Both the position numbers and the translations under genes were made by a program. From Siculibacillus lacustris (GTDB lineage Bacteria; Pseudomonadota; Alphaproteobacteria; Rhizobiales; Ancalomicrobiaceae), in NCBI RefSeq assembly GCF_004328075.1, contig NZ_SJFN01000001.1, forward strand, positions 1 to 64,000: a DNA stretch of 64,000 nucleotides, in the 5' to 3' direction. Below, one piece after another: positions 456 to 17,868 of the stretch (positions within the stretch are counted from its first letter, which is position 1; the number at the start of each line of letters is the position of its first letter). The notes under the pieces were generated by a model that was not told the origin of the DNA, made no database searches, and saw only the letters and a list, made by a program, of their open reading frames with translations.

Positions 456-1646
456 ATGTTCGATCGCAGCCTATCTCGCCGCGGCTTCTTGCTGACCACC
501 GGCGGTGCCGCCGGACTGCTGGCCGGCGCCGGCCCGGTGTTCGCCGCGCTGGCCAAGCCGGCCGCCCCGGTGACGCTCAACATCGTCGACGTCGCCGGCA
601 ACCTCGCCCTCACCCAGAAGGCGATCGACAACTACCGCAAGGCCAAGCCGGAGTGGGTGTCGAAGATCACCTTCTCCAAGGCGCCGGCCCCGGAACTGCC
701 GGGCAAGCTCAAAGCCCAGCAGGACGCCGACCGCGTCGACATCGACATGGTTCTGACCGGCACCGACGTGCTGTCGGCCGGCGTCGACCAGAAGCTGTGG
801 CAGGAACTGATCCCCGCCCATGCAGGCGATCTGCCCAAGCTCCAGGACGTGTTCCTCGAGCCGGCGTGGCGGATGCAGGCGCTGGCCCAGGGCCAGGGCG
901 TGGTCGTCACCTATTATCCCTCCGGGCCGCTGATCGAATACGCCCCCGAGCGGGTCAAGTCCGTGCCGAAGAACGCCGCCGAGCTGCTCGCCTGGGCCAA
1001 GGCCAATCCGAAGCGCTTCATGTATGCCCGTCCGGCCAACTCCGGCCCGGGGCGGACCTTCATCATGGGTCTGCCGCACATCCTCGGCGACAAGGATCCG
1101 CAGGACCCGATCAACGGCTGGGCCAAGACCTGGGATTATTTGCGCGAACTCGGCGAGACCATCGACAACTATCCCGCCGGCACGACCCCGACGATGAAGG
1201 CGCTGGGCGAAGGTTCCTGCGACATGATCGCCACCACCACGGGCTGGGATATCAACCCGCGGGTGCTCGGCGTGGTGCCGAAGTCGGCCGAGATCTTCTC
1301 GCTGGCCGGCTTCAAGTGGGTCGCCGATGCGCACTACATGTGCATCCCGAAGGGCGTCAAGGCCGACAAGGTCGCGGTGCTGCTCGACCTGATGAACCAT
1401 CTGCTCAGCCCCGAGCAGCAGGCCTATACCTATGACGAGGGCTACTTCTATCCGGGTCCGGCGGTGAAGGGCGTGACCCTGAAGATGGCTCCGGCCGACA
1501 GCCAGGCGGCGATCGCCGAATACGGCCGCCCGATCTACGAGAAGCTGATCGCCGAAACGCCGATCGAACTGCCCCTGCCCGCCGACAAGCTCGTCCAGGC
1601 GTTCCGCCGCTGGGACGAAGAGATCGGCTCGCGCAAGGGCAAGTGA
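456..1646 (+). CDS. ABC transporter substrate-binding protein, Tat-exported
   Basis: This 396-residue periplasmic solute-binding protein belongs to the large extracellular family 1 group used by spermidine/putrescine- and sugar-type ABC importers. The N-terminus carries a twin-arginine signal: S-R-R-G-F-L at residues 7-12, a hydrophobic stretch, and likely cleavage near residues 30-33. It would therefore be exported folded. It heads a set of one ATPase and two permeases. Being flanked by uxaC and uxuA, it probably binds a hexuronate or oligo-uronide; that ligand is inferred from context only. The start follows a GGGAGAG ribosome-binding site. Family assignment is good, ligand unknown. Confidence 0.85.
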   Translation: MFDRSLSRRGFLLTTGGAAGLLAGAGPVFAALAKPAAPVTLNIVDVAGNLALTQKAIDNYRKAKPEWVSKITFSKAPAPELPGKLKAQQDADRVDIDMVLTGTDVLSAGVDQKLWQELIPAHAGDLPKLQDVFLEPAWRMQALAQGQGVVVTYYPSGPLIEYAPERVKSVPKNAAELLAWAKANPKRFMYARPANSGPGRTFIMGLPHILGDKDPQDPINGWAKTWDYLRELGETIDNYPAGTTPTMKALGEGSCDMIATTTGWDINPRVLGVVPKSAEIFSLAGFKWVADAHYMCIPKGVKADKVAVLLDLMNHLLSPEQQAYTYDEGYFYPGPAVKGVTLKMAPADSQAAIAEYGRPIYEKLIAETPIELPLPADKLVQAFRRWDEEIGSRKGK

Positions 1647-1655
1647 GCGGGCGTC

Positions 1656-1683
1656 GGGCGGGCGGGGTTCTCCCCGCCCGCCC
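1656..1683 (+). other. Strong stem-loop after binding-protein gene
   Basis: A perfect 12-bp GC stem (GGGCGGGCGGGG with CCCCGCCCGCCC) has a TTCT loop and starts 9 bases after the stop codon. There is no T run, so it is not a classic terminator. Its place between the binding protein and the ATPase fits 3'-end protection of the binding-protein message. Confidence 0.6.
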
Positions 1684-1753
1684 CGGCCCCTCGTGATCGC
1701 CTCCCTACCGTTCCCTGCGCCGATCCCGGCGCGGCAGCTCGAAGCGAGACCCC

Positions 1754-2823
<1,070 letters not shown>

Positions 2824-2827
<4 letters not shown>

Positions 2828-3708
2828 CCGATCGCGGACCGACCCTGACCCAACGCCTGCGGGCGCGCGGCCTCGACGGCGTGACCCTGCTGGTCCTGCC
2901 CTGCGTGTTGGCGATCATCGCGCTGTTCATCTACCCGTTCCTCTACGGGCTGTGGCTGTCGTTCCAGCCCAAGGACGGCACGACGATGGGCAATTACGAC
3001 CGGTTCTTCCGCGAACCGTTCCTGTACAAGACGATTTGGACGACGCTGAAGATCTCGATCCCGGTGACCATCCTCAATCTGCTGCTCGCCGTGCCGATCG
3101 CCTTCCGGGTGCGGCTGATGAAGCATCAGCGGTTGCTGACCACCATCCTGGTGCTGCCGATCACGCTGGGCACCGTGCTGGTCGCCGAGGGCATGCTGTT
3201 CTACTTCGGACCGCAGGGCTGGTTCTCGCGCACCGTGATGGCCCTCGGGCTGATGGACCACGCGCCGTCGATCACCCACGGCTACTGGGGGGTGTTCCTG
3301 TCGCTGCTGATCACCGGCTTCCCCTTCACCTTCCTCTTGACCCTGTCCTACGTCACCGGCATCGAGCCGGCGCTGGAACAGGCGGCGGCGACGCTCGGGG
3401 CGGGGCCGGCGGCGCGATTCCGCGAGATCTTCCTGCCGCTGCTGCTGCCGGGGCTGGCGATCACCTTCTGCCTGTCCTTCGTCCAGGCCTATTCGGTCCT
3501 GCCGAGCGCGATCCTGGTCGGCGATCCGGCCAACACCACGCGCGTCATCTCGATCGCCGCCTATCAGGCCGCCTTCGAGGACTACGACTACTCGCTCGCC
3601 TCGGCGATCGCGATGATCATGGGGGCGGTTCAGCTCGTCGTGGTCGCGGCGATCCTCGGCGCTCGGACGCTCGTCTATCGCGGCCCCGTCGCCGCCGCCA
3701 AGGGTTGA
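2824..3708 (+). CDS. ABC transporter permease (first of pair)
   Basis: A 294-residue inner-membrane permease of the PotB/binding-protein-dependent type. A hydrophobic first segment at about residues 20-40 is followed by at least five more. An EAA-like loop (EQAAATLGAGPAARFREIFLPLLLPG) faces the ATPase. The ATG at 2824 overlaps the stop of the ATPase gene by four bases, which fixes the start; an earlier in-frame opening exists but would run far into the ATPase gene. It pairs with the next permease to form the heterodimeric channel. Confidence 0.88.
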
Positions 3709-3718
3709 GGAGCGGACC

Positions 3719-4567
3719 ATGCGCGCCAGCAGTCGAACCCCGCTCACCACCCGCCTCTGGGCCTTCGGGGTGTGGAGCGTCGTGATCTTCTTCGTGCTCA
3801 ACCTCCTCGGCCTGATCGGCTCGGTGGTGACCTCGTCCTTCGCGACGCGCTGGCTCGGAACCTGGTTTCCGGCCGGCTTCACCTGGAAATGGTACTTCGC
3901 CGCCTGGGACGAGTTCCAACTCGGCGACGTGCTGTGGGTCACCTTCGAGGTGGTCGGCTGGGTGGTGGTGATCTCCGGCCTGCTCGGGGTGCCGGCGGCC
4001 TATGCGCTGGCCCGTCGCGAATTCCCCGGCAAACGCTTCGTGGTGCTGCTGCTCCTGCTGCCGCTGCTGGTGCCTTCGGTGACCTACGGCATTCCGCTGG
4101 CCACGGTGCTCTACAAGGTCGGCTTCGGCGGCTCGCTGGTCGGGGTGATCCTGGCCAATCTGGTGCCGACGGTGCCCTTCGTGGTGCTGGTGATGATCCC
4201 GTTCATCGAGCAGATCGACCCGCGCATCGAGTCGGCGGCCCGGGTGTTCGGCGCCAACACCTTCAAGGTGTTCGTCTACGTGCTGGTGCCGATCCTGATG
4301 CCCGGCGTGCTGGCGGCCCTGCTCCTGGTGCTGGTGCGGACCATCGCGATGTTCGAACTGACCTTCCTGGTCGCCGGGCCGGGGTCGCAGACCCTGGTCG
4401 TGGCGCTCTATTACGCGGTCTTCGCGGCCGGCGTGCGGGCGGTGCAGTCGATCGACGCCATGGCCGTGGTCTACATGGTGACGACGCTGATCTGGCTGAT
4501 CATCGCCCTGCGTTTCGTCAATCCGACCCAGATCGTCGCGCGGGCCAAGCGCGACACGTCTCACTGA
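3719..4567 (+). CDS. ABC transporter permease (second of pair)
   Basis: A 282-residue PotC-type permease with about six membrane segments and an EAA-like loop ([26 protein letters not shown]). It begins 10 bases after the first permease, with GAGGAG just upstream. It completes a standard importer of one binding protein, one ATPase type and two permeases. uxuA follows 44 bases later, which ties the transporter to hexuronate use. Confidence 0.88.
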
Positions 4568-4611
4568 TCGCCGTCCTGACGCGACGCGACGTCTCCGAGG
4601 AGCGTTTCCCC

Positions 4612-5673
4612 ATGAAGATGACCTTCCGTTGGTACGGCAAGGACGACCCGGTCACCCTCGACAACATCCGCCAGATCCCGGGCATGACCGGCGTCGTCTC
4701 GGCGGTCTACGACGTGCCGGTCGGCGAGGTGTGGCCGCCCGAGCGGATCCGCGCCCTGGTCGACGAGGTCCACGCCCATGGGCTCGCGCTCGAGGTGATC
4801 GAGAGCGTGCCGGTGCACGAGGACATCAAGCTCGGCAAGCCGAGCCGCGACCGGCTGATCGCCAACTACGGCGAGACGCTGCGCAATCTGGCGGCCTACG
4901 GCATCAAGGTGGTCTGCTACAACTTCATGCCGATGTTCGACTGGACCCGCACCACGCTCGACATGAAGCTGCCGGACGGGTCGTCGACCTTGGCCTTCGA
5001 CGCCGCGGCGATCGAGAAGATCGACCCCAAGCAGGGCATCCGTCTGCCCGGCTGGGACGCCAGCTATACGCCCGACGAGCTGCGCGATCTGCTCGCCGAA
5101 TATGCCCATGTCGACGAGGCGAAGCTGCGCGACAATCTCGCCTATTTCCTGCGCGGGGTGATCCCGGTGGCCAAGGAGGTCGGGATCGCCATGGCGATCC
5201 ATCCCGACGACCCACCGCGGCCGATCTTCGGCCTGCCGCGGATCGTCAAGAACCGCGAGGATCTCGCCCGCATCCTCGACGTGGTCGATGACCCGGCCAA
5301 CGGCCTGACGCTGTGCTCGGGGTCGCTCGGCTCGGACGTCGGCAACGACGTGGCGGCGCTGGTGCGCGAATTCGGCGGCCGCGGCCGCATCCACTTCGCC
5401 CATCTGCGCAACGTCAAGGTCGACGCCAGCGGCAGCTTCCACGAGACCGGTCACCGCTCGGCCGACGGCTCGCTCGACATGGCCGAGATCGTCCGCGCCT
5501 ATCACGACACCGGCTTCACCGGCTACGTCCGCCCCGACCACGGCCGGATGATCTGGGGCGAGACCGGGCGACCGGGCTACGGCCTCTACGACCGAGCGCT
5601 CGGCGCGGTCTATCTCGCCGGCCTGTGGGAAGGCATCGACAAGGTCACGCCGACCCCGGCCCCGGCCCCCTGA
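4612..5673 (+). CDS. uxuA: Mannonate dehydratase
   Basis: A 353-residue cytoplasmic UxuA (EC 4.2.1.8), which dehydrates D-mannonate to 2-keto-3-deoxygluconate. Family landmarks are FRWYG near the start, the [12 protein letters not shown] segment, [17 protein letters not shown] and HFAHLRNV; the Cys and His residues in these blocks correspond to the metal site. It is slightly shorter than the E. coli enzyme (394). The ATG at 4612 has GAGGAG about 10 bases upstream. A longer in-frame opening would overlap the permease and is rejected. Its product is the substrate class of KdgT, encoded further along. Confidence 0.95.
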
Positions 5674-6024: not shown

Positions 6025-7302
6025 ATGACCGCTCCCTGGCTGATCGTCGCCGACGACCTCACCGGCGCCGCCGACTGCGGCATCGCCTTCGCCGGAGCGG
6101 GCATCGCCACGGTGGTGGTGTGGGACGACGCGTCGCAGGGCGCGGTCACGGTCACCTCGGTCGACACCCGCAGCCGCTTCCTGCCGGCGGCGCTGGCCGC
6201 CGCCCGTCAGGTCGCGGCGACCACCGCCCGCCACACCCCCGGCACGCGGGTCTACAAGAAGATCGATTCGACCTTGCGCGGTCAGTTCGCCGCCGAACTC
6301 GCGGCCCAGCGCGACCTGCTCGCCGAACGTACCGCCGGCGCCGCGCCGATGGCGATCGTCGCCCCGGCCTTTCCGGCGACCGGACGGACCACCGAGGGCG
6401 GAAAAGTGCGGGTCGCCGGGCGGCCGCTCGAAGAGACGCCGCTGTGGGCGCGCGACCACACCTATGCGGACGCCGATCTGGTGGCGATCCTGGCCGGCGT
6501 CGGGATCGGCGCCGAGGCCCTGGATCTCGCGACGATCCGCGGCGATCGCGCCGATCTCGCCGCGACCTTCGCCGAGGCCCGCCGCCGCGGCGTCGCGGCG
6601 CTGGTCTGCGACGCGGTGACCGAGAGCGATCTCGCGGCGATCGCCGCCGCTTCGCTGCCGCTCGCCGATTCGGTGATGTGGGTCGGCACCGGCGGCCTCG
6701 CCAAACATCTGGCGGCGCTGATCGCCCCGAGCGCGGCGGCCGCTTCCGCGCTCGACGTCACCGCTGCCGGAGGGCCGGTGCTGCTGGTGATCGGCAGCGT
6801 CGCCGAGGCTTCGCGGTTGCAGGCGGCCGAACTGGTCGGCTCCGGCGCGGTCGAGGGTTTCGCCGTGGCGGCGGAGGATCTCTTCGCCGGCGAAGGATCG
6901 GCGGCGACCGCAGTGCTGCGCGCGACGATCGCCGCGCGGCTCGCCGCCGGCCGCGACGTGCTGGTCAAACTCGCCGACGATGCCGCCCCGGATCTGGCGC
7001 GCGGCACCGAGCTCGCCGATCTGTTCGCCGACTGGTTGGGGCCGGTGCTGCCGCAGGCCGGTGCCCTGGTGATGACCGGCGGCGACACCGCCTGTGCGCT
7101 GCTCGGGCGGATCGGCGCGGCCGGCATCCGGCTGGTCGCCGAGGTCGAGCCGGGCGTGCCGATCGGCCGGGCGCTGGGGCCTCTGTCCCTACCGGTGGTG
7201 AGCAAGGCCGGCGCCTTCGGCGACGCGCAGACGCTGGCGCGCTGCCTCTCCCATCTCAAACGCGACGCCCGGTCGCCGGCCGCGGCCGACGCCCGCTCCT
7301 GA
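6025..7302 (+). CDS. Four-carbon acid-sugar kinase family protein (DUF1537, DtnK-like)
   Basis: A 425-residue kinase of the DUF1537 family, which phosphorylates D-threonate, D-erythronate or related acid sugars. The N-terminal nucleophile/substrate domain opens with IVADDLTGAADCG, followed by KKIDSTLRG. The C-terminal nucleotide-binding domain contains MTGGDTACALL and KAGAFG near the end. The ATG at 6025 has AAGAGGA upstream and gives a family-normal length. A PdxA2-type dehydrogenase follows; DtnK plus PdxA2 is the established D-threonate route to dihydroxyacetone phosphate. Substrate identity is inferred from that pairing. Confidence 0.88.
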   Translation: MTAPWLIVADDLTGAADCGIAFAGAGIATVVVWDDASQGAVTVTSVDTRSRFLPAALAAARQVAATTARHTPGTRVYKKIDSTLRGQFAAELAAQRDLLAERTAGAAPMAIVAPAFPATGRTTEGGKVRVAGRPLEETPLWARDHTYADADLVAILAGVGIGAEALDLATIRGDRADLAATFAEARRRGVAALVCDAVTESDLAAIAAASLPLADSVMWVGTGGLAKHLAALIAPSAAAASALDVTAAGGPVLLVIGSVAEASRLQAAELVGSGAVEGFAVAAEDLFAGEGSAATAVLRATIAARLAAGRDVLVKLADDAAPDLARGTELADLFADWLGPVLPQAGALVMTGGDTACALLGRIGAAGIRLVAEVEPGVPIGRALGPLSLPVVSKAGAFGDAQTLARCLSHLKRDARSPAAADARS

Positions 7303-7359
7303 CTTATCCGACCCCTGCGCCGGGCCATGCCCGCCCGCGCCGAACCTTTCGAGGCCACC

Positions 7360-8367
7360 ATGCACAAGCCGATCATAGCCATCACCATGGGCGATCCCTG
7401 CGGCGTCGGGCCGGAGATCATCATGAAGAGCTTCGCCCATGACGAGCTCTATGCGATCTGCCGACCGGTGGTGATCGGCGACGCCGGGCGCCTGATTCGC
7501 GCCGGCGAAATCTGCGGCTCGACCCTGACCGTCCACGCCATCGAGGACCTCGCCGCGGCGACCTACGCCCCCGGCGTGGTCGAGGTGATCCAGGTCGGCG
7601 TGGTGCCGCCGGATCTGCCGTTCGGACAGGTGTCGGCCGAGGGCGGCGACGCCGCCTACCGCTACATCGAGCGGGCGGCGCGGCTGGCGGTGGCCGGCGA
7701 GGTCGGGGCGATCTGCACCGCACCGCTCAACAAGGCGGCGCTGCATGCCGGCGGCCATATCTTCCCCGGCCATACCGAGATGCTCGCCCATCTCACCGGC
7801 ACGCCGGAAGTCTCGATGATGCTGACCGCGCCGGGGCTGCGGGTGATCCACGTCACCACCCACATCGGTCTGATCGACGCGATCGCCCGCATCGACGCCG
7901 GACTGGTGCAGCGGACCATCGAACGCGCCCACGCCACCCTGGCCAAGGCCGGCATCGCCGATCCGCGCATCGGCGTCTGCGCGATCAACCCGCACGCCGG
8001 CGAGAACGGCCTGTTCGGCCACGGCGAGGAGGCGGAGAAGATCACCCCGGCGATCGAGGTGCTGCAGGCGCGCGGCTGGCGGATCGAGGGCCCGCTGCCG
8101 GCAGACACGCTGTTCTTCCGCGCCGGTCGCGGCGATTTCGACGTGGTGGTGGCGATGTACCACGACCAGGGCCACGGACCGGTCAAGGTGCTGGGCATCG
8201 AGAACGGCGTGAACATCACCGTGGGCTTGCCGGTGGTGCGCACTTCGGTCGATCATGGCACCGCCTTCGACATCGCCGGCACCGGCGTGGCCGACGAGCG
8301 CAGCCTGCTCGAGGCTCTGCGTCAGGCGGTGGCGCTCGCCGACGTGCGGGCCCAGGCCGCCGCCTGA
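7360..8367 (+). CDS. pdxA2: 4-phosphoerythronate/threonate dehydrogenase, PdxA2-like
   Basis: A 335-residue NAD-dependent, metal-binding dehydrogenase of the PdxA family. Motifs include ITMGDPCGVGPEI, TAPLNKAAL, FPGHTEMLAHLTG (metal His), INPHAGENGLFG and MYHDQGHGPVKVLG (metal His). Canonical PdxA acts in vitamin B6 synthesis. Paralogues beside a DUF1537 kinase instead oxidise D-threonate 4-phosphate with decarboxylation to dihydroxyacetone phosphate. The kinase lies 57 bases upstream, favouring the catabolic role. The start at 7360 is chosen over 7327 because it matches the family N-terminus. Confidence 0.9.
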   Translation: MHKPIIAITMGDPCGVGPEIIMKSFAHDELYAICRPVVIGDAGRLIRAGEICGSTLTVHAIEDLAAATYAPGVVEVIQVGVVPPDLPFGQVSAEGGDAAYRYIERAARLAVAGEVGAICTAPLNKAALHAGGHIFPGHTEMLAHLTGTPEVSMMLTAPGLRVIHVTTHIGLIDAIARIDAGLVQRTIERAHATLAKAGIADPRIGVCAINPHAGENGLFGHGEEAEKITPAIEVLQARGWRIEGPLPADTLFFRAGRGDFDVVVAMYHDQGHGPVKVLGIENGVNITVGLPVVRTSVDHGTAFDIAGTGVADERSLLEALRQAVALADVRAQAAA

Positions 8368-8390
8368 GCGCGGAGCGAACGGGAACACCG

Positions 8391-9158
8391 ATGAACCGCA
8401 CCGAACGTCGCCGTCGCCGTCTGCTCGAGCTGATCACCGCCGGCGAAGAAGACGTCGACGTGCTGGCCGCCGCGGTCGAGGTCTCGGCCTCGACGATCCG
8501 GCGCGATCTGGCGGCGCTCGCCGAGGACGGGCGGATCACCCGCACCTACGGCGGGGCGGTGCCGGCCCGTCCGCTCGCCGAACATCCGCTGACCACCCGC
8601 GAGGCCCTCCACCGCGCCGCCAAGGCCGAGATCGCCGAGCGAGCGCTCGATCTGGTCGAGGACGGCGACAGCCTGCTGCTCGACGCCGGCTCGACGGTGG
8701 CGGCCTTCGGCCGGCTGCTGGTCGGCCGACGGGTGCGGGTGGTGACCGGGAACATGGCGCTGGTGGCGCCGCTGATCCAGGCCGGGATCGAGGTGACGGT
8801 GCTCGGCGGGGTGGTGCGACCGCTCAGCATGGGGGTGGTCGGGCCGCTGGCCGAGGCGGTGTTGCGCCGGCTCACCGTCGACAAGGCCTTCCTCGGCGCC
8901 GACGGGGTGGTCGCCGGGCGCGGGCTTTGCGAAGCGCGCCCCGAACAGAGCGCCCTGAAGGAACTGATGATGGCCCAGGCCGCCCGCGTGGTGGTGCTCG
9001 CCGACGCCTCCAAGCTCGGCATGGCCGGGCAGCCGTGCTGGGCGCCGCTGCCCGGGGCCTGGACCCTGGTCACCGACGCGCAGGCCACCGACGAGCAGAT
9101 CCGGCCGTTCCTGCGCACCGCCGGGGTCGCGGTGCTGCGCGGGCCGCGGTCGACGTGA
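8391..9158 (+). CDS. DeoR/GlpR family transcriptional regulator
   Basis: A 255-residue repressor. The N-terminal winged helix-turn-helix (residues 5-60) has the DeoR pattern VDVLAAAVEVSASTIRRDLAALAEDGRITRTYGGAV. The rest is a sugar-phosphate sensor domain with SLLLDAGSTV, VVTGNMAL, VTVLGGVVR and the GADGV segment. Such proteins release DNA on binding a phosphorylated sugar or acid. It sits 23 bases after pdxA2, so it probably controls its own operon through the TTTC/TTTTGCGC repeats upstream of the kinase. The effector is unknown, plausibly a phosphorylated four-carbon acid. Confidence 0.9.
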   Translation: MNRTERRRRRLLELITAGEEDVDVLAAAVEVSASTIRRDLAALAEDGRITRTYGGAVPARPLAEHPLTTREALHRAAKAEIAERALDLVEDGDSLLLDAGSTVAAFGRLLVGRRVRVVTGNMALVAPLIQAGIEVTVLGGVVRPLSMGVVGPLAEAVLRRLTVDKAFLGADGVVAGRGLCEARPEQSALKELMMAQAARVVVLADASKLGMAGQPCWAPLPGAWTLVTDAQATDEQIRPFLRTAGVAVLRGPRST

Positions 9159-9284: not shown

Positions 9285-11216
<1,932 letters not shown>

Positions 11217-11336: not shown

Positions 11337-11354
11337 TTGGCACGGAGCTCGCTT
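11337..11354 (+). promoter_or_regulatory. Sigma-54 (-24/-12) promoter of kdgT
   Basis: TTGGCACGGAGCTCGCTT matches the sigma-54 consensus TGGCAC-N5-TTGC at all but one position. The invariant GG (11339-11340) and GC (11351-11352) are exactly 10 bp apart. Transcription would start near 11364, about 100 bases before the kdgT start. The gene immediately upstream encodes a sigma-54 activator with an intact GAFTGA loop, which makes the assignment unusually coherent. I found no convincing palindromic enhancer site in 11217-11336. Confidence 0.8.
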
Positions 11355-11462
11355 ACGCAGGCGCCAGTGGACCCGAACCGGCGCAACGACGCGGTTCGCC
11401 ACACCGCGAGGTCCTCCACGACGACGGGCCGGCGGACGGCCCATCTTCAGGAGGAAACGAAC

Positions 11463-12470
11463 ATGCAGATTCCGATCAAACGCGCGATCGAGAGAGTCCC
11501 CGGCGGGATGATGGTGGTGCCATTGCTGCTCGGGGCGATTCTCAACACCTTCTTCCCCGGCACGCCGAAGTTCTTCGGATCGTTCACCGGCGCCCTGTTC
11601 GCCGGCGGCATGCCGATCTTGGCGGCGTTCTTCATCTGCATGGGCGCCAGCATCGACATCAAGGCGACCCCCTACGTGCTCAAGAAGGGCGGTTCGCTGT
11701 TCGCCACCAAGATCATCATCGGCGCGGTGTTCGGGGTGATCCTCGGGCATTTCCTCGGCGAGGCACCGATCCAGGGCGGCCTGTTCGGCGGTCTGTCGAC
11801 GCTCGCGGTGGTCGCGGCGATGAACGACACCAACGGCGGCCTCTATTGCGCGCTGATGGGCCAGTACGGCCGCTCGCGCGACGTCGGCGCCTATTCGATC
11901 ATGTCGCTGGAATCCGGACCGTTCCTGACCATGACGACGCTCGGGCTGGCCGGCCTGTCGTCGTTCCCGTGGCAGACCATGCTCGGCGCCATCCTGCCGC
12001 TGTTGATCGGCATGGCGATCGGCAACCTCGATCGCGAGATGCGGCTGTTCCTGGGCAAGATCGCCCCGGGCCTGATCCCGTTCTTCGCCTTCGGCCTCGG
12101 TGCCGGCCTCGATCTCAGCAAGGTGTGGAGCGCCGGTCTGCTCGGCCTCGGCGTCGGCGTGGCGGTGGTGGCGATCACCGGTCTGGCGCTGTTCTTCGTC
12201 GACCGGGCGACCGGGGGCACCGGGGTCGCCGGCGTCGCCGCCTCCTCGACCGCCGGCAACGCCGCGGCGGTTCCGGCGATCATCGCCGGCGCCAACCCGG
12301 CCTATGCGGAAGCCGCGCAGAGTGCGACCATCCTGGTCGCCGCGGCGGTGGTGGTCACCGCCATCCTGGTGCCGCTGGTGACGTCCTTCGTGGCGTCGAA
12401 GTTCGGAACCATGACCGACGACGACGACGAGACCGCGGCGGAGACCGACACCGTGCCGGTCCATCCCTGA
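11463..12470 (+). CDS. kdgT: 2-keto-3-deoxygluconate permease
   Basis: A 335-residue integral membrane proton symporter of the KdgT family with about ten hydrophobic segments. Family landmarks are [17 protein letters not shown] at the N-terminus, [36 protein letters not shown] and [12 protein letters not shown]. The tail is acidic ([12 protein letters not shown]). A strong AGGAGGAAAC site precedes the ATG at 11463. It sits behind a sigma-54 promoter and a PrpR-like activator. It would import KDG or a related aldonate, complementing UxuA, which makes KDG inside the cell. Confidence 0.93.
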
Positions 12471-12476
12471 TCGCGA

Positions 12477-12507
12477 CGGTCGGCGGCGGATTCCTCGCCG
12501 CCGACCG
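12477..12507 (+). terminator. Stem-loop after kdgT
   Basis: A perfect 12-bp stem (CGGTCGGCGGCG with CGCCGCCGACCG) around a 7-base loop starts just after the kdgT stop. It lacks a T tract, so termination may be partial and leave some read-through into larA. Confidence 0.55.
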
Positions 12508-12555
12508 CTCCTCGTCGTCCGCCGCGACGCGTCCACCCGAGAACGGAAGCCCCCC

Positions 12556-13848
12556 ATGAACGACACGGTCAACATCGCCTACGGCCGCGGCCATCTCGCC
12601 GTCCGCCTGCCCGACGACGCCGAGGCGACGGTCATCCGCAAGGTCACCCTGCCCAAGCTCGGCGACCAGACGGCGGCGATCCGGGCGGCGCTCGAGGCCC
12701 CGATCGGTGCGGTCCCCTATTCGACCCTGGTGAAGGGCCGGAGGAGCGCCTGCATCCTGATCTGCGACATCACCCGGCCGGTGCCGAACCGGCTGTTCCT
12801 GCGGCCGATGATCGAAGGGCTGCTCGCCGCGGGCATGCCCGCCGCGGCGATCTCGGTGGTGGTGGCGACCGGCCTGCATCGCCCCAACGAAGGCGCCGAG
12901 TTGGCCGAGCTGGTCGGCGACCCCTGGGTGCTCGACACGGTGCGGGTCGAGAACCATTTCGCCCGCGACGACGACGCCCATGTCGACCTCGGCCCGACCT
13001 CGCGCGGCACGCCGGTCAAGATCGACCGCCGCTTCGTCGACGCCGATCTGCGCATCGTCACCGGGCTGATCGAGCCGCATTTCATGGCCGGCTGGTCGGG
13101 CGGGCGCAAGGTGATCGCCCCCGGCGTCGCCCATCACGAGACCATCCGCACCTTTCATTCCGCCCGCTTCATGGAAGATCCGCTGGCGGTCCAGTGCAAT
13201 CTGGTCGGCAATCCGCTGCACGAGGAACAGCTGGAGATCGTCGCCAAGATCGGCGAGGTCTACGCGCTCAACACCGTCCTCGACGAGGACCGCGATCTGG
13301 TCCACGTGACCTTCGGCGAGGTGATCGCCAGCCATCTCGCGGCGATCGAGTTCATCGCCGAATCCACCGCGATCGCCGTGCCGCGGCGCTTCAAGACCAT
13401 CGTCACCTCGTCGGCCGGCTATCCCCTCGACAAGACCTACTACCAGACGGTCAAGGGCATGGTCACGCCGATGGACATCCTGGAGCCGGGCGGCACGCTG
13501 ATCATCGCCTCGGAATGTTCGGAGGGCTTCGGCTCGCCGGAGTTCCGCGACGCCCAGGAGCGACTGGTGACCCTCGGACCGGAACGCTTCCTGGCCACGC
13601 TGAAGGCCAAGACCTTCGCCGAGATCGACGAGTGGCAGACCGAGATGCAGCTGAAGCCGATGCGGATGAGCCGCGTCCAGCTCTACACCACCGGCCTCGG
13701 CGCGGAAGAGCGGCGGATCACCGGCGTCGAACTGGTCGAGTCGGTCGAGGCGGCGATCCGGGCGAGCATCGATCGCGCCGGCGACGTCGCGGTGGCGATC
13801 ATCCCGGAAGGACCCTATGTGGTGCCGGTCCATGCCGCTCGAAGCTGA
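12556..13848 (+). CDS. larA: LarA-family nickel-dependent hydroxyacid racemase/epimerase
   Basis: A 430-residue LarA homologue using the nickel-pincer nucleotide cofactor to racemise or epimerise a 2-hydroxyacid by hydride transfer. The cofactor and catalytic residues are in place: His108 (TGLHRP), His175 and Lys185 (EPHFMAGWSGGRK, where Lys carries the covalent cofactor) and His201 (TFHS). These differ by at most one residue from the L. plantarum numbering. The complete cofactor set larC, larE, larB follows. The superfamily includes enzymes acting on lactate, malate, 2-hydroxyglutarate and D-gluconate. With kdgT upstream and glycerate kinase downstream, an aldonate or glycerate is more likely than lactate. 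Confidence 0.92.
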   Translation: MNDTVNIAYGRGHLAVRLPDDAEATVIRKVTLPKLGDQTAAIRAALEAPIGAVPYSTLVKGRRSACILICDITRPVPNRLFLRPMIEGLLAAGMPAAAISVVVATGLHRPNEGAELAELVGDPWVLDTVRVENHFARDDDAHVDLGPTSRGTPVKIDRRFVDADLRIVTGLIEPHFMAGWSGGRKVIAPGVAHHETIRTFHSARFMEDPLAVQCNLVGNPLHEEQLEIVAKIGEVYALNTVLDEDRDLVHVTFGEVIASHLAAIEFIAESTAIAVPRRFKTIVTSSAGYPLDKTYYQTVKGMVTPMDILEPGGTLIIASECSEGFGSPEFRDAQERLVTLGPERFLATLKAKTFAEIDEWQTEMQLKPMRMSRVQLYTTGLGAEERRITGVELVESVEAAIRASIDRAGDVAVAIIPEGPYVVPVHAARS

Positions 13849-15205
13849 ACCGCTGCACGTCCATCTCGATGCGGTCGGGGGGGCGGCCGGCGACATGTTC
13901 GTCGCCGCCCTGCTCGACGCGCTGCCGCATCTGCGGCCGCGGGTGTTCGCCGATCTCGCCGCGGTGCTGCCGGCGTCTTGCGGCCGACCGGTGCTGGTCC
14001 CCGGCACCAGCGGCGGCATCGCCGTCACCCGCTTCGGCCTGGACGGGCCGGAGCCGGAGGTGGCGCGAGAGCATGGGCATGGGCACGAGCACGCGCATGC
14101 GGCCGGACACGATCACGGTCACTCGCACGGGCACGGCCATGACCACCCCCACGGCCATGATCACAGCCACGACCATGCCCATGGCCACGATCACCCCCAC
14201 TCCCACGACGCCCCGTCCGGGCCGGCGCGGATCGTGCGCTTTCCGGAGATCGCCGCGATGATCGCGGCGGCCGACCTCGCCCCGGGCACCGGCGCGGCGG
14301 CGATCGCCATTCTGCGCCGCCTCGCCGAAGCCGAGAGCCGGATGCACGCGGTGCCGCTCGACGACGTGCATTTCCACGAGCTCGCCGATTGGGATTCGCT
14401 GATGGACGTGGTGGCGGCCGGCAGCCTGATCGCCGCGTTGCCCAACGCCACCTGGAGCGTCTCCGATCTGCCGCGCGGCCGCGGATTGGTGCGCACCGCC
14501 CATGGCCTGTTGCCGGTGCCGGCGCCGGCCACCGCGGCGATCCTCGGACGCTTCTCGTGGCGCGACGACGGCATCGGCGGCGAGCGGGTGACCCCGACCG
14601 GCGCGGCGATCCTCGCCCATCTGATCGACCCCGACACGCCGCATCCCGCCGCCGGGCGGCTCGGTGCGACCGGCACCGGCGCCGGCACGCGAACCCTGCC
14701 GGGGATGCCCAACATCCTGCGCGCCCTGGTGTTCACCGCCGCGCAGGAGGCGGCCCCGGCCGACGACGACGAGGTGATGGTGGTCACCTTCGACGTCGAC
14801 GACATGACCGGCGAGGAGATCGCCGTGGCGGCCGAGCGGCTGCGGGCCTGCGACGGGGTGATCGACCTGACGCTCGGCGCCCGCCAGGGCAAGAAGGGCC
14901 GCCCGGTCACCGACTTCCGCCTGATGGTCCGGCCCGCCGCTCTCGCCGCGGTCGGCGAGCGCTGTTTCCTGGAGACCGCGACGCTCGGCTTGCGTTGGCG
15001 CGCGGAACGGCGCATCTGCCTGCCGCGGGGCGCCGCGGCAGTGGTCGTCGACGGCCGCACCCTGGCGGTCAAGCGGGCGGAACGGCCCGACGGCCGCACC
15101 ACCGTCAAGGTGGAGAACGATTCCCTCGCCCCGATCGACGGGCTCGGCGCGCGGCGCCGGGCGCAGCGGGCGGCCGAGAACGACGCAGAGGAGACCGACG
15201 CTTGA
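13832..15205 (+). CDS. larC: Nickel-pincer cofactor nickel-insertion protein LarC
   Basis: A 457-residue CTP-dependent cyclometallase that inserts nickel into the pincer nucleotide. It starts with the typical LHVHLDAVGGAAGDMFVAALLDAL and ends with the substrate/CTP region (RQGKKGRPVTDF, KVENDSLAPIDGLGARRRAQ). A histidine-rich loop of about 45 residues near 80-125 (HGHGHEHAHAAGHDHGH...) is a likely nickel reservoir. In L. plantarum larC is split and joined by programmed frameshifting; here it is one uninterrupted frame. It overlaps the larA end by 17 bases. An ATG at 13817 is an alternative start. Confidence 0.9.
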   Translation: MPLEAEPLHVHLDAVGGAAGDMFVAALLDALPHLRPRVFADLAAVLPASCGRPVLVPGTSGGIAVTRFGLDGPEPEVAREHGHGHEHAHAAGHDHGHSHGHGHDHPHGHDHSHDHAHGHDHPHSHDAPSGPARIVRFPEIAAMIAAADLAPGTGAAAIAILRRLAEAESRMHAVPLDDVHFHELADWDSLMDVVAAGSLIAALPNATWSVSDLPRGRGLVRTAHGLLPVPAPATAAILGRFSWRDDGIGGERVTPTGAAILAHLIDPDTPHPAAGRLGATGTGAGTRTLPGMPNILRALVFTAAQEAAPADDDEVMVVTFDVDDMTGEEIAVAAERLRACDGVIDLTLGARQGKKGRPVTDFRLMVRPAALAAVGERCFLETATLGLRWRAERRICLPRGAAAVVVDGRTLAVKRAERPDGRTTVKVENDSLAPIDGLGARRRAQRAAENDAEETDA

Positions 15206-15999
15206 CGATCGCCATCCGCGAAGCGGCCCTGGTGGCCGCCCTCGACCGCCACCCCGCCCTGGCGATCGCCGTCAGCGGCGGCGTCGATTCGATGGTGCTG
15301 GCCCATGTCGGCCACCGCCTGTCGCAGGCCGCGACCACCGCGGTCCATGCGGTGTCGCCGGCGGTGCCGGCGCTGGCCACCGCCCGGGTCGAGGACCACG
15401 CCCGCCGCTTCGGCTGGCGGCTGCGGCTGATCGACGCCGGCGAGCTCGCCGATCCGGCCTATCGCGCCAATCCGGTCGACCGCTGTTTCTATTGCAAGAG
15501 CAACCTCTACAGCCGCATCCGCGAGGTGATCGGCGGATCGATCGCCTCCGGCACCAATCTAGACGATCTCGACGACTTCCGACCGGGCCTCGACGCGGCA
15601 CGACGGGCCGAAGTCGTGCATCCCTTCGTCGAGGCGGGGCTCGGCAAGGCCGACATCTACGAACTCGCCCGCGCCTATGGGCTCGACGACCTCGCGGCGC
15701 TGCCGGCTCAGCCGTGTCTGGCCAGCCGCATCGAGACCGGCATCGGCGTCGACGAGGACGCCCTGGCGTTCATCGAGGCGGTGGAGATCGAGCTCGCGGC
15801 GGCGCTGCCCGGCGCCGAGGCGCTGCGTTGTCGCATCACCGCGGCCGGCGTCTTCGCCGAATGCGCGCCGCTGCCCGAGGGGCCGCAGGCCGAAGCGATC
15901 GCCGCTCGGGTCGCGGCACTGGCGGCCGCCGCCGGGCGGCCGTTCGGCGGGCTCCGGGCCTATCGCCGCGGCGCGGCCTTCCTGCGGGACCTGCGATGA
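15202..15999 (+). CDS. larE: ATP-dependent sacrificial sulfur transferase LarE
   Basis: A 265-residue PP-loop enzyme that adenylates the pyridinium biscarboxylate and donates sulfur for the nickel pincer ligand. It has the PP-loop IAVSGGVDSMVLAHV near residue 25, the VDRCFYCKSNLY block, and Cys172 in QPCLASRI, at about the position of the sacrificial Cys176 of L. plantarum LarE. The start is a TTG at 15202 overlapping the larC stop, chosen because it gives the family-normal N-terminus. The CxxC in CFYCK could instead indicate a cluster-assisted variant. Confidence 0.9.
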   Translation: MTIAIREAALVAALDRHPALAIAVSGGVDSMVLAHVGHRLSQAATTAVHAVSPAVPALATARVEDHARRFGWRLRLIDAGELADPAYRANPVDRCFYCKSNLYSRIREVIGGSIASGTNLDDLDDFRPGLDAARRAEVVHPFVEAGLGKADIYELARAYGLDDLAALPAQPCLASRIETGIGVDEDALAFIEAVEIELAAALPGAEALRCRITAAGVFAECAPLPEGPQAEAIAARVAALAAAAGRPFGGLRAYRRGAAFLRDLR

Positions 16000-16661
16000 G
16001 AGAGTTCGAGATCGACTGGGACCGCGAAGCCCGCACCGGCAGTGCCGAAGCGATCCTGTGCGACGGCAAGAGCGTCGCGCAGATCGAGGCGATCCTCGCG
16101 GCGGCCGGCGATCGCCGTCTGTTGCTGACCCGTCTCGACGGGGAGAAGCACGACGCCCTGGCGGCGGCGACGCGGCGGCGGCTCGACCACGATCCGCTCT
16201 CGCGTACGGCGACCCACGGCGCGCCGGCGCCGGTGCGGCGCCCCGGGCCGGGGATCGTCTGCGCCGGAACCTCCGACCTGCCGGTGGCGCGCGAAGCGGC
16301 GCGCAGCCTCGCCTTCGCCGGCTGGGCGGCACCGATCGTCGCCGACGTCGGGGTCGCCGGGCTGTGGCGGCTCTTCGCCCGGCTCGACGAGATCCGCGGC
16401 TTCTCGGTGGTGATCGTGGTGGCCGGCATGGAGGGGGCGCTGTTCGGCGTGCTCGCCGGCCTGATCGCCGCGCCGGTGATCGCCGTGCCGACCTCGATCG
16501 GCTACGGCGTGGCGACCGGCGGCCGCGCGGCGCTGACCGGGGCGCTGGCCTCCTGTGCGCCGGGGCTGGTCACCGTCAACATCGACAACGGCTTCGGCGC
16601 CGCCTGCGCGGCGCTGCGCATCCTCGAGACCTTCCCGACCGCCCCTCACCCGATTCCATGA
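15996..16661 (+). CDS. larB: Pyridinium biscarboxylate mononucleotide synthase LarB
   Basis: A 221-residue enzyme that carboxylates nicotinic acid adenine dinucleotide as the first step of the nickel-pincer cofactor. The PurE-like C-terminal half has GIVCAGTSDLPVAREAA, VADVGVAGLWRL, VVIVVAGMEGALFGVLAGL and PVIAVPTSIGYGVATGG. The ATG overlaps the larE stop (ATGA), so larC, larE and larB are a tightly coupled unit. The order larA-larC-larE-larB supplies the full cofactor pathway apart from a nickel transporter, which is not in the window. Confidence 0.92.
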   Translation: MREFEIDWDREARTGSAEAILCDGKSVAQIEAILAAAGDRRLLLTRLDGEKHDALAAATRRRLDHDPLSRTATHGAPAPVRRPGPGIVCAGTSDLPVAREAARSLAFAGWAAPIVADVGVAGLWRLFARLDEIRGFSVVIVVAGMEGALFGVLAGLIAAPVIAVPTSIGYGVATGGRAALTGALASCAPGLVTVNIDNGFGAACAALRILETFPTAPHPIP

Positions 16662-16722
16662 CCACCCGCCCCGTCCGCGGCTCGCGCCGCGCACGGCTCA
16701 GCAGCCTCCAGGGAGACTCCCC

Positions 16723-17868
16723 ATGAAGATCGTGATCGCGCCGGATTCCTACAAGGAGAGCCTGTCGGCGCTCGAGGTGGCCCTGGAGATCGAAACCGGA
16801 TTCCGCGAGATCTTTCCCGATGCGGTCTATGTCCGCATCCCCGTCGCCGACGGCGGCGAGGGCACGGTCGACGCGATGGTCGCGGCGACCGGCGGCACCT
16901 CGATCGACACGCCGGTGACCGGCCCGCTCGGGCAACCGGTCGTGGCACGCTGGGGCCTGACCGGCGACGGCGGCACCGCGGTGATCGAGATGGCGGCGGC
17001 GAGCGGCCTGACGCTGGTCGCGCCGGACGCGCGCAATCCGCTGCTCACCACCACCTACGGGGTCGGCGAGCTGATCCGCGCCGCCCTCGACCAGGGCTCG
17101 CGGCGCTTCATCATCGGCATCGGCGGCAGCGCCACCAACGACGGCGGCGCCGGCATGGTCGAAGCGCTGGGCGGACGTCTGCTCGACGGCGAAGGCCGGG
17201 CGATCGTCCGCGGCGGCGGCGGCCTCGCGTCGCTCGCCCGCATCGACGTCGCCGGGCTCGACCCGCGGCTCGCCGAGTGCCGGATCGAAGTCGCCTGCGA
17301 CGTCGACAATCCGCTGACCGGGCCGCACGGCGCTTCGGCGACCTTCGGGCCGCAGAAGGGCGCGACCCCGGCGATGGTCGCCGAACTCGACGCGGCGCTC
17401 GCCCACTATGCCGCCATCATCCAGCGCGACCTCGGCAAGGCGGTGGCCGATCTGCCCGGCGCCGGTGCGGCCGGCGGCCTCGGCGCGGCGATGGTCGCCT
17501 TCCTCGGCGCCACCCTGCGGCCGGGGGCCGAAATCGTCACCACCGCGCTCGGCCTCGACGCGGCGGTCGCCGACGCCGATCTGGTGATCACCGGCGAAGG
17601 CCGGATCGACGGCCAGACGGTGCACGGCAAGACGCCGATGGGCGTGGCGCGGGTCGCCGCCCGCCACGGCAAGCCGGTGATCGGCATCGCCGGCTGCCTC
17701 GGCACCGGCTCGGAGCTGGTCCATGGCCACGACATCGCCGCGGTGTTCGCGGTGATGCGCCGGCCCTGCACGGTGGCCGAAGCGCTGGCCGACGCCGCCG
17801 TCAACGTCCGCACCGCGGCGCGCAACGTCGCCGCGGCGATCGCGCTGGGCCGCAGTCTCGCGCGCTGA
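16723..17868 (+). CDS. garK: Glycerate kinase (GarK/GlxK type)
   Basis: A 381-residue glycerate 2-kinase. Landmarks are MKIVIAPDSYKESLSALEVA at the N-terminus, VADGGEGTVDAMV, the FIIGIGGSATNDGGAGMVEALGG block, CDVDNPLTGPHGAS and VITGEGRIDGQTVHGKTP. It phosphorylates D-glycerate to 2-phosphoglycerate, feeding glycolysis. It begins 61 bases after larB with GGGAG upstream and appears to be the last gene of the cluster. A nickel racemase upstream could convert L- to D-glycerate for it; that is a hypothesis from position only. Confidence 0.92.
   Translation: MKIVIAPDSYKESLSALEVALEIETGFREIFPDAVYVRIPVADGGEGTVDAMVAATGGTSIDTPVTGPLGQPVVARWGLTGDGGTAVIEMAAASGLTLVAPDARNPLLTTTYGVGELIRAALDQGSRRFIIGIGGSATNDGGAGMVEALGGRLLDGEGRAIVRGGGGLASLARIDVAGLDPRLAECRIEVACDVDNPLTGPHGASATFGPQKGATPAMVAELDAALAHYAAIIQRDLGKAVADLPGAGAAGGLGAAMVAFLGATLRPGAEIVTTALGLDAAVADADLVITGEGRIDGQTVHGKTPMGVARVAARHGKPVIGIAGCLGTGSELVHGHDIAAVFAVMRRPCTVAEALADAAVNVRTAARNVAAAIALGRSLAR

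Follow-up and report, generated by a model that had tools for sequence, protein, structure and literature searches.

A probable nickel-pincer racemase operon that ends in a glycerate kinase gene

We analysed a 64,000-nucleotide stretch of Siculibacillus lacustris DNA (NCBI RefSeq assembly GCF_004328075.1, contig NZ_SJFN01000001.1, positions 1 to 64,000; hereafter the window), in which a plus-strand operon, KdgT-larA-larC-larE-larB-GarK, spans positions 11463-17868 and places a homolog of the racemase LarA between a permease and a glycerate kinase. The intergenic gaps are 85, -32, -4, -4 and 61 bp, and there are no internal stops. A preliminary description of this DNA had reported a larA-larC-larE-larB set between a 2-keto-3-deoxygluconate (KDG) permease and a glycerate kinase; all of these genes are indeed present and in frame. 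Judged from sequence, the six genes probably form a glycerate-assimilation module in which LarA acts as an L-to-D glycerate racemase feeding GarK. The basis of this reading is the identity of the genes, the catalytic residues and pocket of LarA, the recurrence of the unit, its association with two unrelated kinase families, and promoter candidates.

GarK gives the only PF02595 match in the genome, which has no match to MOFRL-type kinases (class III kinases were not searched for); it is thus the sole glycerate kinase of class I or II found there. LarA gives the single Lar_N match. LarA is predicted to be a glycerate (short-chain 2-hydroxyacid) racemase, and KdgT is expected to import glycerate or some other small aldonate; it scores below the KDG permease equivalog TIGR00793 (382.3 against 453.8 bits). 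Residues 81-135 of LarC (window 14057-14221) include 22 His in 55 residues, with HGH and HDH repeats, and this segment probably binds nickel.

Table 1. Positions of the operon genes, the candidate promoter and neighbouring genes in the window
Feature	Position	Strand	Basis
KdgT-family permease	11463-12470	+	PF03812 379.9 bits; TIGR00793 382.3 bits
LarA homolog	12556-13848	+	Lar_N 193.6 bits and LarA_C 56.5 bits, both above cut-off
LarC, nickel insertion (LarC1-LarC2 in a single frame)	13817-15205	+	TIGR00299 and LarC2 above cut-off
LarE, ATP-dependent sacrificial sulfur transferase	15202-15999	+	TIGR00268 above cut-off; TTG start overlaps larC stop
LarB, step 1 of nickel-pincer cofactor synthesis	15996-16661	+	NF033503 above cut-off
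GarK-type class I (PF02595) glycerate kinase	16723-17868	+	TIGR00045 505.9 against cut-off 168; PF02595 507.7 against 23.3
Candidate sigma-54 (-24/-12) promoter, TGGCACGGAGCTCGCT	11338-11353	+	110 bp before KdgT start
PrpR-like sigma-54-dependent activator	9285-11216	+	Pfam PrpR_N, PAS, AAA+, Fis-type HTH; under NCBIfam PrpR equivalog cut-off
DUF1537 kinase	6025-7302	+	188.6 bits; NCBIfam D-threonate equivalog cut-off 450 not reached
PdxA2 dehydrogenase	7360-8367	+	341.7 bits; NCBIfam D-threonate equivalog cut-off 583 not reached
DeoR	8391-9158	+	Pfam, NCBIfam
UxuA mannonate dehydratase	4612-5673		Pfam, NCBIfam

Active site and substrate pocket of LarA

The window LarA belongs to the LarA superfamily by its domains, its residues and the larB, larC and larE genes of its operon. 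In the alignment, catalytic D71, H108, H175 and K300 correspond to D72, H108, H174 and K298 of LarA, and cofactor residues R74, K185 and H201 to R75, K184 and H200; Y296 and Q297 are also present. The preliminary description had located H108, H175, K185 and H201 exactly. The top solved relative is LarAIp (345 bits, versus 190 for the malate racemase Mar2 and 180-183 for Lactiplantibacillus plantarum LarA), and a Foldseek comparison of the predicted model with the LarAIp structure 9eid gives a TM score of 0.86, the fold agreeing with LarA structures. The AlphaFold model was set aside for pocket geometry, its confidence score (pLDDT) being below 50 at residues 171-185, 198-219, 288-294 and 352-364.

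The four specificity positions read F176, M177, W360 and Q361. An L-M or F-M pair after the second catalytic His, with W at the position of LarA W358, marks the LarAIp (Sar) group (PMC7583248), and the window LarA carries this signature as F-M followed by W-Q. The usual pockets of other groups are E,V,A,H for gluconate enzymes such as GntE, H/Q then K at the W358 and T359 positions for malate racemases (MAR), and Y,F,H/Q,T for 2-hydroxyglutarate racemases (HGR) (PMC11770544). The window LarA matches none of these, and it falls below the NCBIfam malate racemase models (293 against 500 and 264 against 462 bits) and the lactate racemase equivalog NF033504 (341.9 against 460). Pockets of the lactate racemase (LAR) group are usually F,F,W,E/Q, and the Q-bearing member LarAH43 works best on glycerate, a preference for which Q at the LarA T359 position has been proposed as the reason (PMC11770544). 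LarAIp (L,M,W,Q) is best on lactate and 2-hydroxybutyrate, followed by L-glycerate (PMC11851776). The window pocket predicts a small hydroxyacid substrate, with lactate and glycerate not separable by the pocket alone, and the enzyme is probably promiscuous, acting also on lactate and 2-hydroxybutyrate.

The unit recurs and is linked to two unrelated glycerate kinases

Scanning a single genome for each species gave 533 relatives; the best 80 were kept, more distant contexts lying outside this set. Neighbouring genes were compared by tblastn with window or cluster proteins, by clustering, and by Pfam and NCBIfam scans of chosen neighbours, methods that remote homologs may escape; several of the relatives' loci, denoted here by L numbers, end at contig ends. 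A plasmid of Rhodovastum atsumiense carries sigma-54 regulator-KdgT-larA-larC-larE-larB-glycerate kinase in the window order, followed by transposase genes, with identities to the window of 67% for PrpR, 84% for KdgT, 81% for LarA and 72% for GarK. The plasmid record ends 248 bases from the PrpR gene, and tblastn over all of that record but 246 bases (150001-150246) returned no DUF1537, PdxA2 or DeoR match. Locus L003 has PrpR, KdgT, LarA, LarC, LarE and GarK, and no DUF1537 match by tblastn of the stretch. The garK gene lies within the unit in the window, L195 and L003. GarK, KdgT and LarA of L006 follow genes for a 2-hydroxyacid dehydrogenase and for a tartronate semialdehyde reductase (487 bits, cut-off 397), and L005 holds members of these clusters in matching order, with an HbpS-like protein interposed.

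A second kind of kinase is found in the same company. MOFRL-type glycerate kinases, which share no common origin with class I enzymes (PMC2063504), are encoded on the LarA strand in four loci, upstream of PrpR-KdgT-LarA in L070 and downstream of the lar genes in L037, L039 and a Rhizobium ruizarguesonis plasmid (L202). Among the best 80 of 533 relatives, KdgT is near LarA in 8/80, a GarK-type kinase in 4/80 and a MOFRL-type kinase in 5/80, while an FAA hydrolase is near in 10/80 and either an FAA hydrolase or an FAD oxidase in 14/80. A glycerate kinase of one or the other family thus occurs in 9/80 stretches, versus about 0.11-0.18 expected from gene density in the class (MOFRL in 129 of 270 genomes with 135 matches, GarK-type in eight of 270 including the window's own genome); the loci are related, hence we attach no probability to this excess.

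In a tree of 110 LarAs, built by a quick method with SH-aLRT support only, the window LarA falls inside a 12-row clade with support of 99. KdgT accompanies 10/12 members of this clade and 0/93 of the other relatives, and a glycerate kinase 7/12 versus 6/93 (Fisher p 4.5e-5, the rows not being independent); LarAIp, LarALp, L145, L146 and L200 were left out of these counts. Linkage to a glycerate kinase extends across lineages, though within the clade it holds for seven of 12 members; on the tree, with 13 positive rows among 108, at least 11 changes of kinase state are required. A Pfam scan of 20 genes beside other relatives gave mixed families and no common partner.

A second, longer KdgT type occurs, so far as sampled, only near LarA (L003, L004, L005, L006, L007, L145 and L146). 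It is 35-37% identical to the window permease in L003-L007 and accompanies LarAs of two lineages. A search for the L003-type KdgT in plasmids gave no match, and a further search for the L146-type LarA in its class found it in two of 274 genomes, both previously found here.

Candidate sigma-54 promoters precede the permease gene

The promoter candidate ahead of the window KdgT scores 21.0 of 22.5, a value equalled in 0.3% of 300 dinucleotide shuffles, with author-set weights in the scan. Strong -24/-12 matches, none equalled in more than 0.3% of 300 shuffles, stand ahead of KdgT in the window, L195, L003, L004, L007 and L070, and no such site was found in L005, L006, L008, L145 or L146; L009 was left out. 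GarK precedes KdgT in L005, L006 and L008. A site lies before the leading operon gene of L005; the 137 bases scanned at the corresponding place in L006 contain none. PrpR orthologs, 66-69% identical, lie near KdgT or LarA in L003, L007, L070 and L195; PrpR was not found by tblastn in the L004 stretch, which has a site, nor in L145 or L146. Apart from the exceptions just listed, the pattern of sites fits control of the unit by PrpR and sigma-54, separate from the DeoR that belongs to the four-carbon genes upstream. We also sought a common activator-binding word upstream of KdgT and found nothing convincing.

Weighing the substrates of the module

In the glycerate reading, the PrpR-like activator would sense a signal and start transcription at the sigma-54 promoter at 11338-11353, and KdgT would bring in glycerate. 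LarB, LarE and LarC would make the nickel-pincer nucleotide; K185 of LarA would tether it, and H201 would be a ligand of the nickel. The acid/base pair H108/H175 would then turn L-glycerate into D-glycerate by proton-coupled hydride transfer, and GarK would convert D-glycerate to phosphoglycerate, which would enter glycolysis. The preliminary description had offered two roles for LarA. Gene context gives good support to the first, the conversion of L- to D-glycerate for GarK, and the pocket resembles those of known glycerate racemisers. Epimerisation of an imported aldonate has fared less well, with the GntE signature absent and PdxA2 not found in the stretches of the other 11 clade members; the ties of KdgT relatives and of one distant LarA operon (L146) to four-carbon-acid genes leave it some probability.

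Several observations count against the glycerate reading. The F,M,W,Q pocket is found in 103 of 108 context rows, cousins in L-fucose-type clusters that should release lactate included, and sequence alone therefore does not pick glycerate; no residue in the pocket divides glycerate-linked from lactate-linked LarAs. The KdgT-linked clade is marked only by V168, I172, F354 and the presence of the first Met, all near the named pocket and outside it, for which common ancestry is as good an explanation as function. Polar side chains slow LarAIp (PMC11851776). In the open-access literature searched, supplements excluded, we found no link of KdgT to L-glycerate or to glycerate kinase, and glycerate transport by KdgT is therefore unsupported; KdgT relatives examined outside the LarA-linked groups often sit in four-carbon-acid operons. 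For five of the 12 clade members (L002, L004, L007, L009 and L010) the stretch shows no glycerate kinase; two of them, L002 and L010, show no KdgT there either, the L010 stretch being short upstream. The nearest relative, L002 (88% identical), is among these: neither KdgT nor GarK was found nearby, in a stretch that stops about 1.6 kb past the start of the larB match, and its genome has no PF02595 gene. The genomes of L007 and L070 likewise have no PF02595 gene; all three carry MOFRL kinases. A glycerate kinase is also nearby in six rows outside the clade, but in three of these (L073, L074 and L175) the MOFRL gene lies on the strand opposite to LarA, which makes these loci weaker evidence of linkage since no operon can be formed.

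A general racemase of lactate and other short-chain 2-hydroxyacids, serving physiological L- or D-lactate with garK linked incidentally, seems to us unlikely, if well worth considering. The preliminary description had named tight clustering of LarA with proven lactate racemases as a ground for refutation, and on this point the outcome is mixed: the closest solved relative, LarAIp, acts on lactate and favours it together with 2-hydroxybutyrate, and cousins that share the pocket probably work on lactate. Those cousins lie within an oxidative cluster of aldo/keto reductases, an amidohydrolase, an SDR, an FAA hydrolase and an FAD oxidase, which we take to be an L-fucose-type route with pyruvate and lactate as end products; since such cousins share the pocket, the physiological role of a LarA seems to be set by its operon. 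Gene content does not dismiss a lactate role either, because FMN_dh gives only partial matches in the genome (27 and 23 bits) and four FAD-oxidase_C genes are present: an LldD-type L-lactate dehydrogenase is probably absent, and a racemase with a D-lactate dehydrogenase could form an L-lactate route. On the other side stand the lack of a lactate oxidation gene in the operon, the recurrent linkage to two unrelated glycerate kinases, and the FAA hydrolase context, found in 0/12 clade members versus 11/93 others. The earlier remark that no lactate genes are nearby holds in so far as genome searches placed no FMN_dh (LldD-type) or FAD-oxidase_C (D-lactate-dehydrogenase-type) match in the window, which is annotated to about 26 kb; lactate permease and LutABC-type genes were not searched for.

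The ties to four-carbon acids bear on another possibility, that KdgT imports D-erythronate and D-threonate (or the L pair) and LarA converts each epimer into the other, with GarK on a side route. One DUF1537 kinase with PdxA2 would, we presume, take both tetronate epimers to dihydroxyacetone phosphate, and DUF1537, PdxA2 and DeoR genes lie directly upstream of the window unit. KdgT stands with DUF1537, PdxA and DeoR, and without LarA, in L148-L151 and on Paraburkholderia, Caballeronia and Roseomonas plasmids (L197, L198 and L199), and L146 joins them all in the order KdgT-LarA-LarE-LarB-LarC-(DUF1537-PdxA2 fusion)-reductase-DeoR, with a LarA that is 37% identical to the window's, has the pocket F,F,W,Q and scores above the NCBIfam lactate-racemase cut-off. 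L146 and the KdgT-tetronate operons make a threonate/erythronate C2-epimerase a serious alternative, and DUF1537 is also near KdgT-LarA-GarK in L005 (by Pfam), L006 (same cluster) and L008, while LarA of L064 and L077 has both DUF1537 and PdxA2 nearby. LarA-family enzymes C2-epimerise 4-deoxy-threonate/erythronate in vitro, but at rates far under those with lactate or glycerate for LarA1, LarAH51 and LarAH43 (PMC11770544). PdxA2, moreover, was found by tblastn in 0/11 of the other clade members' stretches, and L003 and the Rhodovastum plasmid record, both of which have garK, showed none of the tetronate linkage seen beside the window unit and in L146. In the KdgT tree, window-type LarA-linked permeases branch apart from those of tetronate operons with moderate support (94/96, not starred, versus 83/73), the former group also holding the KdgT of Pantoea L196, found there without a neighbouring LarA; and the tetronate block has its own DeoR, with an ABC transporter further upstream. 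Weighing these points, we rate tetronate epimerisation as the physiological role as improbable. We are similarly doubtful of a broader reading in which the module is a stereochemical funnel for small aldonates, with one KdgT-type importer and a LarA that inverts C2 of glycerate and of four-carbon acids, GarK drawing off D-glycerate and the DUF1537 kinase with PdxA2 drawing off D-threonate or D-erythronate. A hexonate C2-epimerase acting on gluconate and mannonate in the manner of GntE, brought to mind by the UxuA gene and by a permease named after KDG, is very improbable: the pocket is F,M,W,Q where GntE usually has E,V,A,H, GntE2 (4nar) is the most distant among the solved relatives listed, and UxuA was found in 0/80 stretches of the best 80 of 533 relatives. 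We rejected it on pocket and non-recurrence.

Surrounding genes and distribution

The DUF1537, PdxA2 and DeoR genes (6025-9158) are four-carbon acid sugar genes that probably form a unit separate from the lar operon. They answer to the D-threonate-type neighbours of the preliminary description, with the reservation that kinase and dehydrogenase both score under the D-threonate equivalog cut-offs. Further upstream, window positions 456-5673 hold a four-gene ABC transporter set (open reading frames named by eye) and then UxuA.

Some contexts among the relatives are of a different kind. The L146 kinase and dehydrogenase share one 792-amino-acid frame (L146:1867-4245, minus strand), an apparent natural fusion. 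In L064 and L077, where DUF1537 and PdxA2 are near LarA, larBCE were not found in the stretch and a PfkB kinase lies downstream (scanned in L064); these loci are possibly another four-carbon-acid context. In L201, L203 and the Rhizobium/Phyllobacterium loci L042, L050 and L078, larA and larCEB are woven into an oxidative sugar cluster with an FAD oxidase; L201 and L203 also carry gloA, and clusters of their type suggest that L-lactate is recycled through D-lactate. In Ancylobacter and kin (L013, L014, L019, L026, L027 and L028), larACEB adjoins formate-dehydrogenase- and selenium-like genes named by eye; in L014 larA is preceded by a gene with AIRS domains, and that gene by one with a transglutaminase-type domain.

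Matches to larA occur in 23 of 385 genomes of the class and in none of the four same-order genomes listed; in a phylum sample LarA has matches in 4 of 398 genomes, one besides the window's own being in the same order. This sporadic distribution suggests that LarA was gained horizontally.

Significance

Glycerate and deoxythreonate were earlier proposed as substrates of the LarA family (PMC7583248), glycerate racemization by LarA enzymes has been measured in vitro (PMC11770544), and pathways for four-carbon acids are covered elsewhere (PMC10580937, PMC12540250). Neither the phrase 'glycerate racemase' nor a linkage of LarA or lactate racemase to glycerate kinase was found in the open-access literature searched. 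The dedicated operon is the new part, in-vitro glycerate racemization being already published: by pairing LarA with a predicted importer and with a glycerate kinase, it would give a natural role to a reaction known so far only from in-vitro assays. If the glycerate reading is true, L-glycerate would be used as a carbon source through nickel. One active-site signature apparently serves lactate in some operons and glycerate in others, which cautions against naming LarA homologs 'lactate racemase' by default. Should the broader funnel be true instead, C2-epimerisation of tetronates would be new to the LarA superfamily, as far as the literature covered shows, and two LarA lineages, 37% identical, would each have acquired this role on their own.

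Comparison with known systems

LarAIp (LarAH2, of the Sar group) from Isosphaera pallida (PDB 9EIA/9EID) is the closest solved enzyme in both sequence and fold. It shares with the window LarA all catalytic and cofactor residues and the M-W-Q part of the pocket; it differs in having L rather than F at the first pocket position, and by alignment the two are 43.5% identical. LarAIp acts on lactate, 2-hydroxybutyrate, L-glycerate and others (PMC11851776). The glycerate/lactate racemase LarAH43 of Enterocloster asparagiformis, compared by description only, likewise has Q at the T359 position but belongs to the LAR group with its usual F,F,W,E/Q pocket; in vitro its activity on glycerate is at least equal to that on lactate (PMC11770544). 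L. plantarum LarA (5HUQ) has the same fold and catalytic residues, with an F-F-W-T pocket and only 28.5% identity by alignment. Its cofactor genes are larB, larC and larE. LarABw and LarASp belong to the same superfamily with a weak sequence match, and have a single catalytic His, with Asn at the second position, whereas the window LarA keeps both (PMC12611868). The window kinase resembles class I GarK/GlxK enzymes, far above the TIGR00045 cut-off, yet departs from the E. coli type, scoring under the equivalog cut-offs (515 against 686 and 488 against 625). The window permease shares PF03812 with the 2-keto-3-deoxygluconate permease KdgT, but it groups with the permeases linked to four-carbon acids and to LarA, apart from those of L152, L154-L156 and L158-L160.

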